Below are positions 49,460 through 54,601 of a DNA stretch of 64,000 nt, one piece after another. The stretch is from Bacteroidia bacterium (lineage in GTDB: Bacteria > Bacteroidota > Bacteroidia > Chitinophagales > UBA2359). The stretch lies in the NCBI GenBank assembly GCA_030427245.1, contig JAUHXA010000006.1, forward strand, positions 62,001-126,000, written 5' to 3'. Under the pieces are notes generated by a model. That model made no database searches. It was not told the DNA's origin and worked only from the letters and a program-made list of their open reading frames with translations. The position numbers and the translations under genes were made by a program. Each line of letters starts with the position of its first letter. Position 1 is the first letter of the stretch.

Positions 49460-49915
49460 ATGAAAATATTAATGGTCTGTTTAGGGAATATCTGTCGCTC
49501 ACCTTTGGCAGAAGGTATTCTAAAGCACAAAATCAAAGAAAAAGGCTTGGATTGGGAAATTGATTCGGCAGGTACAGGTGCATGGCATATTGGCGAAAAG
49601 CCAGATACTCGGTCCATAGAAGTGGCTCAAAAACATGGTTTGGATATCAGCGACCAGCGAGCCAGAAAGTTTACGGTCAAGGACTTTGACAACTTTGATT
49701 TGATTTATGTGATGGACACTTCCAATTATCGGGATGTGATTCGACAAGCAGAAGATCGTGACGAAGAGGACAAAGTAGAGATGATTCTCAATGAAGTCTA
49801 TCCGGGTATGAATCGAGTTGTACCCGATCCCTATTATAAGCGAGCAGGCTTTGAAGAAGTCTATGAACTTTTGGACAAAGCTTGTGATAAAGTATTGGAA
49901 AAATACAATAAATAA
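49460..49915 (+). CDS. Low-molecular-weight protein-tyrosine phosphatase
   Basis: Cys-dependent phosphatase with the P-loop CLGNICRS (Cys7, Arg13) and the general acid Asp123 in VPDPYYKRAG. The chain MDTSNYRDVIRQAEDR corresponds to the segment near the active site. The length of 151 aa is standard. It is not next to a tyrosine kinase or exopolysaccharide genes. An inverted repeat overlaps its stop codon. Confidence 0.95.
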   Translation: MKILMVCLGNICRSPLAEGILKHKIKEKGLDWEIDSAGTGAWHIGEKPDTRSIEVAQKHGLDISDQRARKFTVKDFDNFDLIYVMDTSNYRDVIRQAEDRDEEDKVEMILNEVYPGMNRVVPDPYYKRAGFEEVYELLDKACDKVLEKYNK

Positions 49916-49956
49916 GCCGATTATTTGAAGGGAAATAAACCTCAAATAATCGGCTT
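49914..49956. terminator. Inverted repeat at the phosphatase stop, probable terminator
   Basis: A perfect 15-bp stem (49914-49928 with 49942-49956) and a 13-base loop; the TAA stop is within the first arm. The T-rich tail is better on the minus strand than on the plus strand. Confidence 0.6.
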
Positions 49957-50111
49957 AGTAAGGGTAAAAAAATAACTCCTCGTTTTCTTTTGCTAACATA
50001 CCCCATCCCCTTTCAAAAGGGGAATATTGGTCGATGAGTTATTTTTTCTTTTTTACTTACGGTGTTTTGTTTATCGTAGTTTCCAAAATATATTTTGGGT
50101 TATGGTTGATT

Positions 50112-51311
50112 TTACTCTTCAAAAAAACCAACACTTGCTCCAACCCATTCTTTGTCTTTATTGTAGCGAACGCCAATCATTTCTCCTTTACTCAATCGAG
50201 CTAAGTTGTTTACCAATTTGGGGCGTTCCCATTCTTTTTTCCAAAGCATCAACATTCTAATTTCGCATTTTACCCCACCATCAGGCGCTGCTAAGACAGG
50301 CTCATAGGTTACTTTCTCCTGCAAAATGTAATCATTCAAGTGTTGGGTAGGTATTTCATCCAAATCCGATTTTTTGACATGGAATTTTACTCCAGCTCCT
50401 GCAAAAGAATACAAAGGCTTCAATACATAGTTTTCCAAATCTTCGGGATAAGTCTCCAAGTCTCCTACAAAATGTGTTTTGGGAACATATTGACTCTCCA
50501 AAAAAGGCATGGTGTATTTACTAATTCTGTAAAACCAGTTGGGATGTCCCAACCATTCTACATCTAAATCGTCTTTGAAGGAAAAATTTCGTTTCAAATC
50601 TTTTCGTTGGAGCAATTCATCAAAAATTACTCGGTAGAAAATCTTTTGAATATGGGTTTTTTCTCCTTTATCATTTAAGTAGAACAGTTTCCGACCTTCT
50701 TTGAGAACCTCCGTTACACAGATAGATTTGATACCCAATTGACGCTCCGTTTCCCAAAAATCTATTTGTGTCAATTGCTTTTTGGGTTCGATTTCGAGCA
50801 AAACTACGTTTTCGGGATTGGAGTCTCCTACAATAACTTCACGCATCAATTCCCGGTACTCTTCAAAGCTCATGCCTCCCAAAAGTGATTGGTAATTTTG
50901 GGGAATGTCAAAATGTTTGCGATACATATTCGCTAATAAATCTTGGAAGAAATACAAAGAAGGGAAGCCCTGTACTTCAATGAGTTTGGGGGACAGTTCT
51001 CCATTCTCGTCTTTGCAGATTCCAAAATCCATTTGGAGGAACAACGTGTGGTCGTCTTCATTTGGAACTTCAATGCTCAAATCCAAAGCTCCTTGTGTTT
51101 TTTCCTTGAAGTCTGCCTGACAGATAGAGTCAGTGATTTCTTCACAAGCCTCTATGATTCTATTTTTCAGATTTTTAGAAACAAAAACGGGAGATTCTGC
51201 AATTCTAAATGGAGGAACATGATTGTGCTGTTGCTCAATGTCTTTTAAGAAAGATTGGTATTTTTCTGCCGTAAAAGCATTATTGTATCCCTGACGAATG
51301 TTTGATATCAT
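50112..51311 (-). CDS. ATP-grasp-like protein (circularly permuted/glutathionylspermidine-synthase-like)
   Basis: A 399-residue protein. The N-terminal half has MDFGICKDENGELSPKLIEVQGFPSLY, where the Glu-Val-Gln metal-site motif lies before the ATP-binding lysine region. The C-terminal half has ENYVLKPLYSFAGAGVKFHVKKSD, YILQEKVTYEPVLAAPDGGVKCEIRML, and RLSKGEMIGVRYN. Having the acidic metal site before the glycine-rich loop suggests the permuted ATP-grasp order of amide ligases such as glutathionylspermidine synthase (inference from motif order). It would form an amide bond with ATP. It is the last gene of the four-gene run beginning at 54543. Confidence 0.75.
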   Translation of the reverse strand: MISNIRQGYNNAFTAEKYQSFLKDIEQQHNHVPPFRIAESPVFVSKNLKNRIIEACEEITDSICQADFKEKTQGALDLSIEVPNEDDHTLFLQMDFGICKDENGELSPKLIEVQGFPSLYFFQDLLANMYRKHFDIPQNYQSLLGGMSFEEYRELMREVIVGDSNPENVVLLEIEPKKQLTQIDFWETERQLGIKSICVTEVLKEGRKLFYLNDKGEKTHIQKIFYRVIFDELLQRKDLKRNFSFKDDLDVEWLGHPNWFYRISKYTMPFLESQYVPKTHFVGDLETYPEDLENYVLKPLYSFAGAGVKFHVKKSDLDEIPTQHLNDYILQEKVTYEPVLAAPDGGVKCEIRMLMLWKKEWERPKLVNNLARLSKGEMIGVRYNKDKEWVGASVGFFEE

Positions 51312-51459
51312 GATTGGTGATTGGTTATTAGTAACAGGATGAATAGTAGTGGATTATTAGTGATAGGGTTAAATAGCAATTAGCGGCTACTGGCTATTTG
51401 GGGCTAATTAATTTGTTGATAGTTAGTGGATTAATGCATAGGAGACAAATGTTTTCTAA

Positions 51460-52272
51460 TTATTGACTAAGCCTTTGTCTTCTACTATTCACTGCATTAT
51501 CCAAAAAAGAAGGTAATATTACTTGGTGGGTCAAAGGAATCTTATCTGGATCGTTGAGATGGTCAATCATACGTTGATATTTTTCCTCACTATGATGTTC
51601 GATGATGTATTTTTGGCGTTCTTCATCCATAAAATGTTTGGTCATTCCTTCTGGATCTGCTTCAGGGTGAAACTGTACACCCAAGATTTCTTCAGAAAAG
51701 CGCACACCCATAATGGCTCTTTCGAGAGGAATATGCGGGCGTTTCTTCTCTCGGAACAGTACTTTTGCCCCTATTTTTTCGAGTTGTTTTTCGTTTAGTT
51801 CGACCACTTGATAAGACCTGAAATCGGCGATGTAAAATGGATTGGGTAAGGGTTTGAAGAAATCATCTTTCAGTCCGTCTTCTGTTTTAAAGACCTTGAA
51901 GGTCCCAAACGACATTGACTTTCTTTTGGTGATTTTTCCTAATTTGAAGTGATGGCAAGCCATTTGAAAAGAATGGCAGATAAAAAACACGTATTTTTTT
52001 TGGTTTTTGGATACCTTCAAATTGTATTGCCACAAATCGTCAATGAGCTGGTAATAAGGAGTTTCCCATTTAGGGTCACCTTCCAATGGATTCCCCGGAC
52101 CACCTGTAAAAATGAAAATGTCAAAGTCCTCACACTTGGGAATTTGACACTTACCACGAACATCAAACACTTTAGAATCAAAAGAATGTGAATGTTCTGT
52201 AATGATTTCACCTATACATCTCATTCCTTGATTTTCTTCCCCATTGTACATGTCTATAATTGCCAATCTCAT
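51460..52272 (-). CDS. Class I glutamine amidotransferase-like protein
   Basis: The triad-type hydrolase fold: Cys99 in FFICHSFQMA and His202 plus Glu204 in GVQFHPEADPEG, and the oxyanion-strand FTGGPGNPLEGDP near residue 56. GATase class I proteins release ammonia from glutamine; a member with a less canonical ICHSFQ elbow may also act as a peptidase or use another amide. MRLAIIDMYN at 52272 is the natural start; the longer frame adds 21 residues that do not belong. It lies between two ATP-grasp genes, so it may supply ammonia or process their product. Confidence 0.86.
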   Translation of the reverse strand: MRLAIIDMYNGEENQGMRCIGEIITEHSHSFDSKVFDVRGKCQIPKCEDFDIFIFTGGPGNPLEGDPKWETPYYQLIDDLWQYNLKVSKNQKKYVFFICHSFQMACHHFKLGKITKRKSMSFGTFKVFKTEDGLKDDFFKPLPNPFYIADFRSYQVVELNEKQLEKIGAKVLFREKKRPHIPLERAIMGVRFSEEILGVQFHPEADPEGMTKHFMDEERQKYIIEHHSEEKYQRMIDHLNDPDKIPLTHQVILPSFLDNAVNSRRQRLSQ

Positions 52273-52385
52273 ATCGTATTGTTTTTTAATTTTTCCTATA
52301 AAACAAGATGTGTTAGACTTTCTCAAATCTAACACATCTAAATTAGTTATAAAAATCTATAAAAGTTATGATTTTTACAAGGATT

Positions 52386-53699
52386 TTAATTTTCATTCAA
52401 CAAAGCCTGTGCCTGTTCTGCCCATTGATCTCTTTTAGCACGACCTTTGAAGCTTGTCATTAGGCTGTCAACTAAATCATACTCACGCTCGGTCATTTTA
52501 CTTACTTGCGTAAAAGTGTAAATGCCGATGGAGTTCAATGTTTTTTCCAATTTAGGTCCTACTCCCTTGATTTTCTTCAAATCTTCCTTTTCTTCCTCCG
52601 TAGCAGTACCAATACTGTTCAACAAATTGTTTTGCGCTGTTGCACTATCCATTGAAGCCACTTCTTCTACCTCGACTTCCACTTCTTTTTCGATATGGCT
52701 GTAAATTTTTTGAACCGCTTCTGTCGCTTGATTCACACCTTCTACGTTCATTGCCGTAAAATCCTTGATGTTGTTTTGCATGAAAGTACCCCAAGTCAGG
52801 TTGTTTGCACCTTCTTTGTGCTTCAATGCTCGCTCAATTGCCATATTTGCAGCATTTTCTACAATCCACTCAAAGTTAGCCGCACCTACAGAGGTCAATT
52901 CTGCATCTGGAGCAGGATTGCAAAAGTCAATTGCATAAGGAACGCCATCACGAATGGCAAATTCCACAGTATTGAAGTCATAACCCAAGGCATGGTTCAA
53001 AGCAATTACATAGTCCTCAACGGTTTTCAATAGTTCAGGAGAGTAATCTTGTGGCTCTTGAACATATCGAAGGTGATGTGGGTTGCGAGGCTCATAAGGC
53101 ATGATGTGTACTCGGTCGCCATTCAAATAGTAACATCTGAAATAAGAGGTAAATTTAATTTCTTCTTGCAACATCATAACCAACTGATTTGTCTCATTGT
53201 AACACTGAAACATGTGGTCAATATTCTCCACCTTGTACACATTTTTCCAGCCACCACCTGCATAAGGTTTCATATAAGCGGGGAAACCAATGTAGTCAAA
53301 AATTCCTTCCCAATCCAACAATTGAAGGTTGCGAAATGAATTTTCTGATGTATCATCAGGACGTTCTTTTGAAGGTAATAACACTGTATTTGGTACAGGG
53401 ATACCTATTTTTTTCGCCAATACATTATTGAAGAATTTTTCGTCAGCACTCCACCAAAATGGATTGTTGAGAACTGCCGTACCACATGCAGCTGCATTTT
53501 TTAAGTAAGCACGATAGAAAGGAACATCTTGCGAAATACGGTCAATAATAACGGCATACTCAGTGGGTTCACCTTGTACCACTTTATCAATGCTAACCGC
53601 TTCTGCTACAATTCCTTCTACTGCTTTCTCATTGATCCTGTCAATGAAAGCTTGTGGAAAGGTATTTTCTTGTCCAAACAGAATACCTATCTTTTTCAT
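52386..53699 (-). CDS. ATP-grasp ligase with C-terminal helix-hairpin-helix domain
   Basis: N-terminal Rossmann-like region (KKIGILFGQENTFPQAFIDRINEK), the ATP-binding GFPAYMKPYAGGGWKNVYKVEN with the clamp Lys and glycine loop, then VMMLQEEI and the metal-site NTVEFAIRDGVPYAIDFCNPAPDAE. After an acidic linker with EVEVEVEE, the last ~60 residues (DLKKIKGVGPKLEKTLNSIGI to WAEQAQALL) match the helix-hairpin-helix-like tail found on NuoE and other proteins. Carboxylate-amine ligation is expected; the substrate is unknown. The fusion suggests docking to nucleic acid or to a partner protein. Confidence 0.85.
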   Translation of the reverse strand: MKKIGILFGQENTFPQAFIDRINEKAVEGIVAEAVSIDKVVQGEPTEYAVIIDRISQDVPFYRAYLKNAAACGTAVLNNPFWWSADEKFFNNVLAKKIGIPVPNTVLLPSKERPDDTSENSFRNLQLLDWEGIFDYIGFPAYMKPYAGGGWKNVYKVENIDHMFQCYNETNQLVMMLQEEIKFTSYFRCYYLNGDRVHIMPYEPRNPHHLRYVQEPQDYSPELLKTVEDYVIALNHALGYDFNTVEFAIRDGVPYAIDFCNPAPDAELTSVGAANFEWIVENAANMAIERALKHKEGANNLTWGTFMQNNIKDFTAMNVEGVNQATEAVQKIYSHIEKEVEVEVEEVASMDSATAQNNLLNSIGTATEEEKEDLKKIKGVGPKLEKTLNSIGIYTFTQVSKMTEREYDLVDSLMTSFKGRAKRDQWAEQAQALLNEN

Positions 53700-53838
53700 C
53701 TTGTTAAGAATATTTATTGGTTGATAATTATAAATGACTAAATTGTGTGATTAAGGGCTAATCTCATTGTGGGAATAGGTGGATAGTAAATGACGATGGG
53801 GTTTATAAAATTATAGTAGCATCGTCTAACTATTCATG

Positions 53839-54543
53839 CTAAAGCATCGAAAGGTAATGAGGGAACATTTCACGCCAAAGAGGCCAATCGTGTTCTTTCC
53901 AACCTCTCATATCTAACCAATGATCAATGTTTTTTCTTTTCAAAATAGCTGACATTTCTTCATTGGCTACTCGACAAATATCCCATTCAGAAGTACCCAA
54001 TACGATTTTCATATTCCAGATAGCAGGATTGTCAGAATTCTGTATAAAATCAATTGGATTGTTGAAGTAAACATTGTCATCATAGTAACCATCCAAAAAA
54101 GATTTGATGTCAAAGGATCCGCTCATACTCAACATATGGCTGACCATTTCGGGATGACGAAAGGCAAAATTGGCTGCATGATAGCCTCCAAAACTACACC
54201 CTGCAACGGCTACACGACCCGTTGGAGATTTGTGACGAATCTTATTGACGATTTCATCCACGACCATTTTATCATACCATATATGGTTTTGGACTTTTTG
54301 GGAAGGATGAATTTTTTTGTTGTACCAACTGAGTTCATTGATACTATCGGGACAGTAAATTGTTACTTTACCCTGCTCTACAAACCATCTAACTGACTCA
54401 ATAAGTTTGAAGTCTTTGGCTTCGTAGTAACGTCCCATGGTAGTAGGAAAGACAATCACAGGATACCCTGCGTGTCCAAATACTTGCATTTCAATATCTT
54501 TGCTAAGATTGGGGGAATACCACTTAAAAAGTTCTTCTCGCAC
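53839..54543 (-). CDS. Esterase (esterase D/PHB-depolymerase-like alpha/beta hydrolase)
   Basis: A short alpha/beta hydrolase (234 aa). The nucleophile elbow is GCSFGG with Ser117, in the segment VAVAGCSFGGYHAANFAFRHPE. A preceding VIVFPTTMGRYYE is the oxyanion region and EHDWPLWREM holds the likely catalytic His near the C-terminus. No signal peptide is present, so it acts in the cytoplasm. It is the first gene of a run with two ATP-grasp proteins and a GATase, and could hydrolyse or transfer the activated product. It has a perfect TACCTTTG box upstream. Confidence 0.88.
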   Translation of the reverse strand: MREELFKWYSPNLSKDIEMQVFGHAGYPVIVFPTTMGRYYEAKDFKLIESVRWFVEQGKVTIYCPDSINELSWYNKKIHPSQKVQNHIWYDKMVVDEIVNKIRHKSPTGRVAVAGCSFGGYHAANFAFRHPEMVSHMLSMSGSFDIKSFLDGYYDDNVYFNNPIDFIQNSDNPAIWNMKIVLGTSEWDICRVANEEMSAILKRKNIDHWLDMRGWKEHDWPLWREMFPHYLSML

Positions 54544-54593: not shown

Positions 54594-54601
54594 CAAAGGT
54601 A
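54594..54601 (-). promoter_or_regulatory. Candidate -7 box for the esterase-ATP-grasp cluster
   Basis: TACCTTTG followed by CAGCC on the minus strand, 51 bases from the esterase start. It fits TAnnTTTG exactly; a -33 TTTG at normal spacing is missing. Confidence 0.5.

Follow-up and report, generated by a model that had tools for sequence, protein, structure and literature searches.

A lineage-reduced ATP-grasp ligase gene set in a Bacteroidia genome, probably for a small amide-linked metabolite

The window, the whole stretch of 64,000 nucleotides that was analysed, carries four co-directional open reading frames on its minus strand. All four were confirmed as they had been described in the original prediction: in transcription order an esterase with a GCSFGG motif (EST), an ATP-grasp protein with a helix-hairpin-helix (HHH) tail (AG1), a glutamine amidotransferase (GATase)-like protein (GAT) and a second ATP-grasp protein (AG2). 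The intergenic gaps are 139, 113 and 148 bp in this order. The features are as follows.

54594-54601, minus strand: TACCTTTG box ahead of EST, possibly a Bacteroidota -7 element, from a consensus match
53839..54543, minus strand: EST, alpha/beta-hydrolase "putative esterase" (PF00756 match; alignment with homologs)
52386..53699, minus strand: AG1, ATP-grasp ligase of the RimK/LysX type (residues 1-312), followed by an accessory HHH tail (AlphaFold model; conserved metal ligands)
52386..52590, minus strand: putative HHH tail of AG1, an accessory part that varies between lineages (weak HHH_5, IMS_HHH and Cdd1 matches)
52306..52339, minus strand: 15-bp hairpin between AG1 and GAT that resembles a terminator, strong by RNA folding (-19.7 kcal/mol, z -5.1)
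51460..52272, minus strand: GAT, class I glutamine-amidotransferase-fold protein with Cys99/His202/Glu204 (PF00117; triad alignment)
50112..51311, minus strand: AG2, predicted circularly permuted ATP-grasp ligase of the glutathione-synthetase/GspS/YgiC fold (AlphaFold model, structure comparison)
49460-49915, plus strand: low-molecular-weight phosphatase gene, converging on AG2

EST starts with a GTG that is backed by aligned homologs. It scores 30.5 bits against PF00756, where the cut-off is 22, and the alignment of homologs places the nucleophile of its GxSxG motif at Ser117 in GCSFGG and the catalytic His at His218 in HDWPLWR. Searches of EST against PHROG gave weak matches only. The start of GAT is the ATG at 52272 rather than the upstream GTG at 52335, as judged from the homolog alignment, and the predicted Cys99 and His202 are both numbered correctly when counted from this ATG. 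GAT belongs to the class I family (37.9 bits against PF00117, cut-off 22.8), and its Cys-His-Glu triad is invariant in the aligned homologs and holds in almost all of the wider relatives. EST and the GATase are both ordinary members of broad families.

The perfect TACCTTTG box that had been predicted ahead of the first gene is present. The window holds six copies of it with 2.15 expected, and 2 of 100 shuffles reach six; the looser TAnnTTTG occurs 99 times with 71 expected. A role as the promoter of EST is plausible but weakly supported, given the short match and the modest enrichment. The hairpin in the AG1-GATase gap occupies the slot that holds a fifth gene, GCS2, in relatives, and it may split the set into two transcripts in the window. 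Between AG2 and the converging phosphatase gene there is a near-perfect inverted repeat at 49914-49958 (AAGCCGATTATTTGA...TCAAATAATCGGCTT), which is likely a terminator shared by these two genes.

The four families form a conserved, co-inherited unit, part of a five-gene set that stays together in hundreds of Bacteroidota genomes. In a sample of 60 related genomes plus the window's own, high-score matches to AG1, the GATase and AG2 fall in the same 17 of the 61 genomes. The EST matches fall there too, and EST is divergent and unlinked in three of the 17. A scan of the collection with AG1 gave at least 587 loci, and 80 were kept, from Bacteroidota and Ignavibacteriota; 64 named loci with enough flanking DNA, in which the genes were located by tblastn, make up the full-context set. 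The order EST, AG1, GCS2, GATase, AG2 on one strand is found in 47 of these 64, which bears out the conserved gene order across Bacteroidota that had been named as a check. Taken singly, EST is present in 55, GCS2 in 57, the GATase in 51 and AG2 in 53, and AG1 is preceded directly by EST in most relatives. Nor are the four genes scattered, which was a way for the original prediction to fail: they remain a linked unit, though in some relatives its genes are distributed over two or three loci.

Co-occurrence was also counted in 198 high-quality Bacteroidota-level genomes. AG1 is found in 72 of them, usually in single copy. With shared ancestry ignored, Fisher p values are 7e-34 for AG1-AG2, 2e-27 for AG1-GAT and 6e-36 for AG2-GCS2. 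The gene-content patterns are AG1, AG2, GATase and GCS2 in 33 genomes, AG1, AG2 and GCS2 in 20, AG1 and the GATase only in 7, AG1, AG2 and the GATase (the type of the window) in 5, and AG1, GATase and GCS2 in 4.

Why does the window have four genes where most of its relatives have five? Clustering of the 80 named neighbourhoods revealed the fifth family, about 366 aa in length, between AG1 and the GATase. It matches PF04107 (E 1e-66) and scores 545 bits against the NCBIfam carboxylate-amine ligase NF010039 (cut-off 371). It is a carboxylate-amine ligase of the glutamate-cysteine-ligase family and belongs with GCS2/YbdK (NF010039, PRK13515), whereas the window is without this gene. The four-gene form is confined to the lineage type of the window. 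For the cluster GCS2, neither a linked nor a close homolog occurs anywhere in the window's genome. A Pfam search there turned up nothing nearer than the distant GCS2 domain of a 642-aa CBS protein, which is encoded next to a further RimK-like ATP-grasp (G000:C172:135898-138937, L209). A second CBS-GCS2 copy lies at G000:C85:64206-66077. The CBS-GCS2 protein and its RimK-like neighbour are another uncharacterised amidoligase pair that is common in the order. CBS-GCS2 was considered as an in-trans substitute for GCS2, but its distribution is not discriminating, as it is found in all 8 relatives that lack GCS2 and also in 6 of the 9 that bear it. On the AG2 tree the GCS2-less label needs five changes, one of which is at L103, a locus that has five genes by tblastn. 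Loss of GCS2, or its regain, happened several times.

Structure prediction had been proposed as a check on both ATP-grasp proteins, and both models match the fold. AG1 (437 aa) is RimK-like: its AlphaFold model aligns with RimK 5zct with Z 21.9 and rmsd 2.6 over 259 residues, and residues 1-300 also match ArgX and LysX (Z about 20) and PsnB (Z 19). The fold is the non-permuted ATP-grasp with E..D..N metal ligands of the RimK type, and the ligands E246, D258 and N261 are conserved in homologs. AG1 thus shares fold and metal-ligand pattern with the RimK/LysX/ArgX ligases but differs from them in having just 13-18% identity and a variable basic or HHH tail. It does not pass the RimK family HMM TIGR00768 (26.3 bits, cut-off 143.4), and no curated Pfam family lies above cut-off over it. 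The R2K clade was tried for AG1 and rejected (PF18299, 17.7 bits, cut-off 26.2).

The original prediction had described AG1 as an ATP-grasp protein with an HHH tail. The fold stands, whereas the tail is accessory and lies outside the core of the cluster. Weak profile matches suggest an HHH assignment for about residues 370-437, where the AlphaFold model has pLDDT under 50. AG1 tails in relatives are Lys/Ala-rich, HHH or missing, and in most they are Lys/Ala-rich or missing; HHH segments that resemble the AG1 tail are found elsewhere in the window's genome. In L101-L180 the C-termini of AG1 include histone-H1-like tails that are rich in Lys, Ala and Pro and reach about 160 aa, and in L162 such a tail is followed by an HHH domain. 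The histone-H1-like tails look like a general appendage in Bacteroidota. One lone AG1 homolog (33%; L035, G039:C2:501130-502059) has lost the ATP-binding Lys and the metal ligands, and its genome is without the remainder of the set. A phage or anti-phage origin of the cluster was rejected; there is no PADLOC model for the core enzymes and the single weak match is to the HHH tail.

The model of AG2 (AlphaFold pLDDT 90, input of 17 aligned homologs) has the permuted ATP-grasp fold. Its best solved relatives are permuted ATP-grasp amide ligases throughout: YjfC (Z 25.6), YgiC (Z 25.5), human glutathione synthetase (Z 24.6) and GspS (Z 24.3), with the E-64 ligase Cp1B at Z 22.3 and trypanothione synthetase at Z 22.1. 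Foldseek gave E of about 1e-13, and a profile search of PDB sequences ranked YgiC first with a weak E of 0.022. The acidic metal motif that had been noticed before the glycine loop is where it was said to be, D95...E112-x-Q114 preceding K298 and the SFAGxGV loop, and this is the permuted order of the GSP_synth (PF03738) family.

AG2 therefore shares with eukaryotic-type glutathione synthetase, GspS and YgiC-YjfC both the permuted fold, which extends along almost the whole of AG2 (Z 20-26), and the D...E-x-(N/Q) acidic motif ahead of the glycine loop. It differs from GspS in detail. True GSP_synth members have an invariant R-x-D...E-x-N, whereas AG2 has E-x-Q in 76 of 76 readable copies and lacks the Arg that stands two positions ahead of the Asp in GspS. 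The substrate of AG2 may differ from that of GspS because of these two changes. Only 4 of 17 AG2 members match PF03738, with a best E of 2.8e-4, under the gathering cut-off, and no curated Pfam family is above cut-off over AG2. Alignment of the AG2 profile with true GSP_synth proteins by hhalign was weak (probability 1.9), and the kinship is for this reason argued from structure. On its model AG2 would work like a glutathione-synthetase-fold ligase, yet its sequence falls outside GSP_synth. The window's genome has a true YgiC-type GSP_synth protein as well, separate from AG2 (G000:C173:111768-112907, L218). In one genome AG2 is fused to a sodium:solute symporter (SSF) domain (L190:6637-9237), which is either real or a sequencing artefact. 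The earlier remark that no glutathione-type genes are present is misleading, since AG2 has the glutathione-synthetase/GspS fold and the missing gene is a glutamate-cysteine-ligase-family enzyme.

The folds and the metal or nucleotide residues of ATP-dependent carboxylate-amine ligases are present in two of the encoded proteins, or in three in species with GCS2. Such ligases use ATP to activate a carboxylate, which they then couple to an amine. It is likely, though well short of certain, that the locus is a lineage-reduced form of a Bacteroidota/Ignavibacteria set for the synthesis of a small amide-linked metabolite by ligase chemistry resembling that of glutathione formation, independent of ribosome and NRPS. 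A pathway that makes and trims such a metabolite was the earlier proposal, and it stays the best reading given the conserved unit and the ligase folds. In most species GCS2 would make a gamma-glutamyl-type amide, the RimK-like AG1 would add an amino acid, and AG2 would add the last amine or amino acid. The GATase may then hydrolyse an amide in trimming or deprotection rather than deliver ammonia, and EST may cleave an ester or an activated form in maturation or recycling. Since GCS2 is gone in the lineage of the window, its step would there be dispensable or supplied in trans, e.g. by the unlinked CBS-GCS2 proteins.

The product of the set is probably a small gamma-glutamyl amide metabolite, and this is least certain in the window because it is without GCS2. 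More specifically, and only tentatively, the set could make a gamma-glutamyl or polyamine-conjugated small molecule that is undescribed so far and widespread in Bacteroidota and Ignavibacteria, functionally analogous to glutathione or glutathionylspermidine, with Saprospiraceae-type lineages having a GCS2-independent version. A glutathione-like thiol was rejected as the default product; it is not needed if bacillithiol derivatives are the most widespread bacterial thiols, as is proposed (PMC6282198). A precedent for a GspS-fold ligase in the synthesis of a small amide natural product is the characterised Cp1B of the E-64 pathway. Like AG2 it is a GspS-fold ATP-grasp, and it makes a small pseudopeptide; however, it is fungal, 13% identical to AG2, and has different partners, an ANL-type synthetase and an epoxidase (PMC12568646). 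A GATase-like protein beside a carboxylate-amine ligase has earlier been read as a thiol peptidase (PMC2588565).

The gamma-glutamyl peptidase GGP1 and PuuD share with GAT the class I fold and the Cys-His-Glu triad, and GAT stands beside a gamma-glutamyl-type ligase in the cluster. GAT may resemble these class I amide hydrolases. The GATase could instead be a true glutaminase that feeds ammonia to an ATP-grasp ligase, as in carbamoyl-phosphate synthetase and MurT-GatD, and the product would then carry a primary carboxamide. The triad is canonical for this role, an ATP-grasp protein with a class I GATase is the classical ammonia-channelling pair, and AG1 and GAT are kept together without AG2 in 11 genomes. 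However, AG1, AG2 and GCS2 persist without the GATase in 20 of 198 genomes, and in two GATase-less loci (L203, L173) the slot between GCS2 and AG2 is filled by an M29 aminopeptidase-like gene; an M29 aminopeptidase is unable to release ammonia from glutamine. By position, in these two loci, the aminopeptidase favours hydrolysis by the GATase over ammonia supply, and we consider the glutaminase role unlikely.

RimK, LysX and ArgX are the closest solved folds to AG1, and AG1 might accordingly extend a protein tail or carrier, as RimK does on S6 and LysX/ArgX on LysW, with the other enzymes editing the tail. Basic or HHH tails of AG1 could dock on a macromolecule, but these tails are not conserved, and the characterised families with the folds of AG2 and GCS2 use small molecules or short peptides as substrates. 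A partner for AG1 resembling S6 or LysW was not seen, and among the 80 named neighbourhoods, searched for open reading frames of 90 aa or more, no small carrier gene is conserved. That the enzymes modify a protein tail, which the original prediction had offered as an alternative, gained no positive evidence and is quite improbable. It is very improbable that the locus is a neutral neighbourhood of unrelated enzymes: some genomes (e.g. G011, G042, G054, G182) have the members at two or more separate loci, but even then the members are found together in the same genomes. A graspetide-type RiPP cluster with AG1 as the macrocyclase is suggested by the structural match to the graspetide ligase PsnB and is likewise very improbable, since RimK and LysX fit AG1 better, the 113-148 bp gaps give a precursor gene no obvious room, the neighbourhood clusters hold no conserved precursor gene (open reading frames of 90 aa or more), and AG1 has the character of a housekeeping gene, being single and highly conserved with 64-75% identity across families.

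The product of an amide-forming pathway encoded by this set seems to belong to general physiology rather than to rare secondary metabolism, given how many of the sampled genomes have AG1 and that it is usually single copy. Amidoligase clusters independent of ribosome and NRPS are known in general. In the literature searched there was neither a record of the five-gene set or its reduced forms nor an experimental description of either ligase or of the set, though the amidoligase survey of Iyer 2009 may list the neighbourhood. Neither AG1 nor AG2 has a curated Pfam family despite their wide spread in Bacteroidota. The set is defined, it has natural GCS2-less, GATase-less and AG2-less variants, and host genera such as Flavobacterium, Dyadobacter and Mucilaginibacter can be cultivated in the laboratory, all of which puts the product within reach of gene deletion combined with metabolomics.

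Variant clusters are found among the relatives. In L191 and L194, which have AG1 and the GATase without AG2, a different permuted ATP-grasp, CP_ATPgrasp_2, stands in the GCS2 slot; the match is clear in L191 and below cut-off in L194, and in both loci the GATase is followed by a further esterase. L193 is a related cluster in which a different open reading frame fills the GCS2 slot and another esterase likewise comes after the GATase. In 49 clustered loci another PF00756 esterase gene lies near the cluster, in divergent orientation and about 1.7 kb ahead of AG1 (e.g. L119:8276-9091); no such gene stands beside the cluster of the window.
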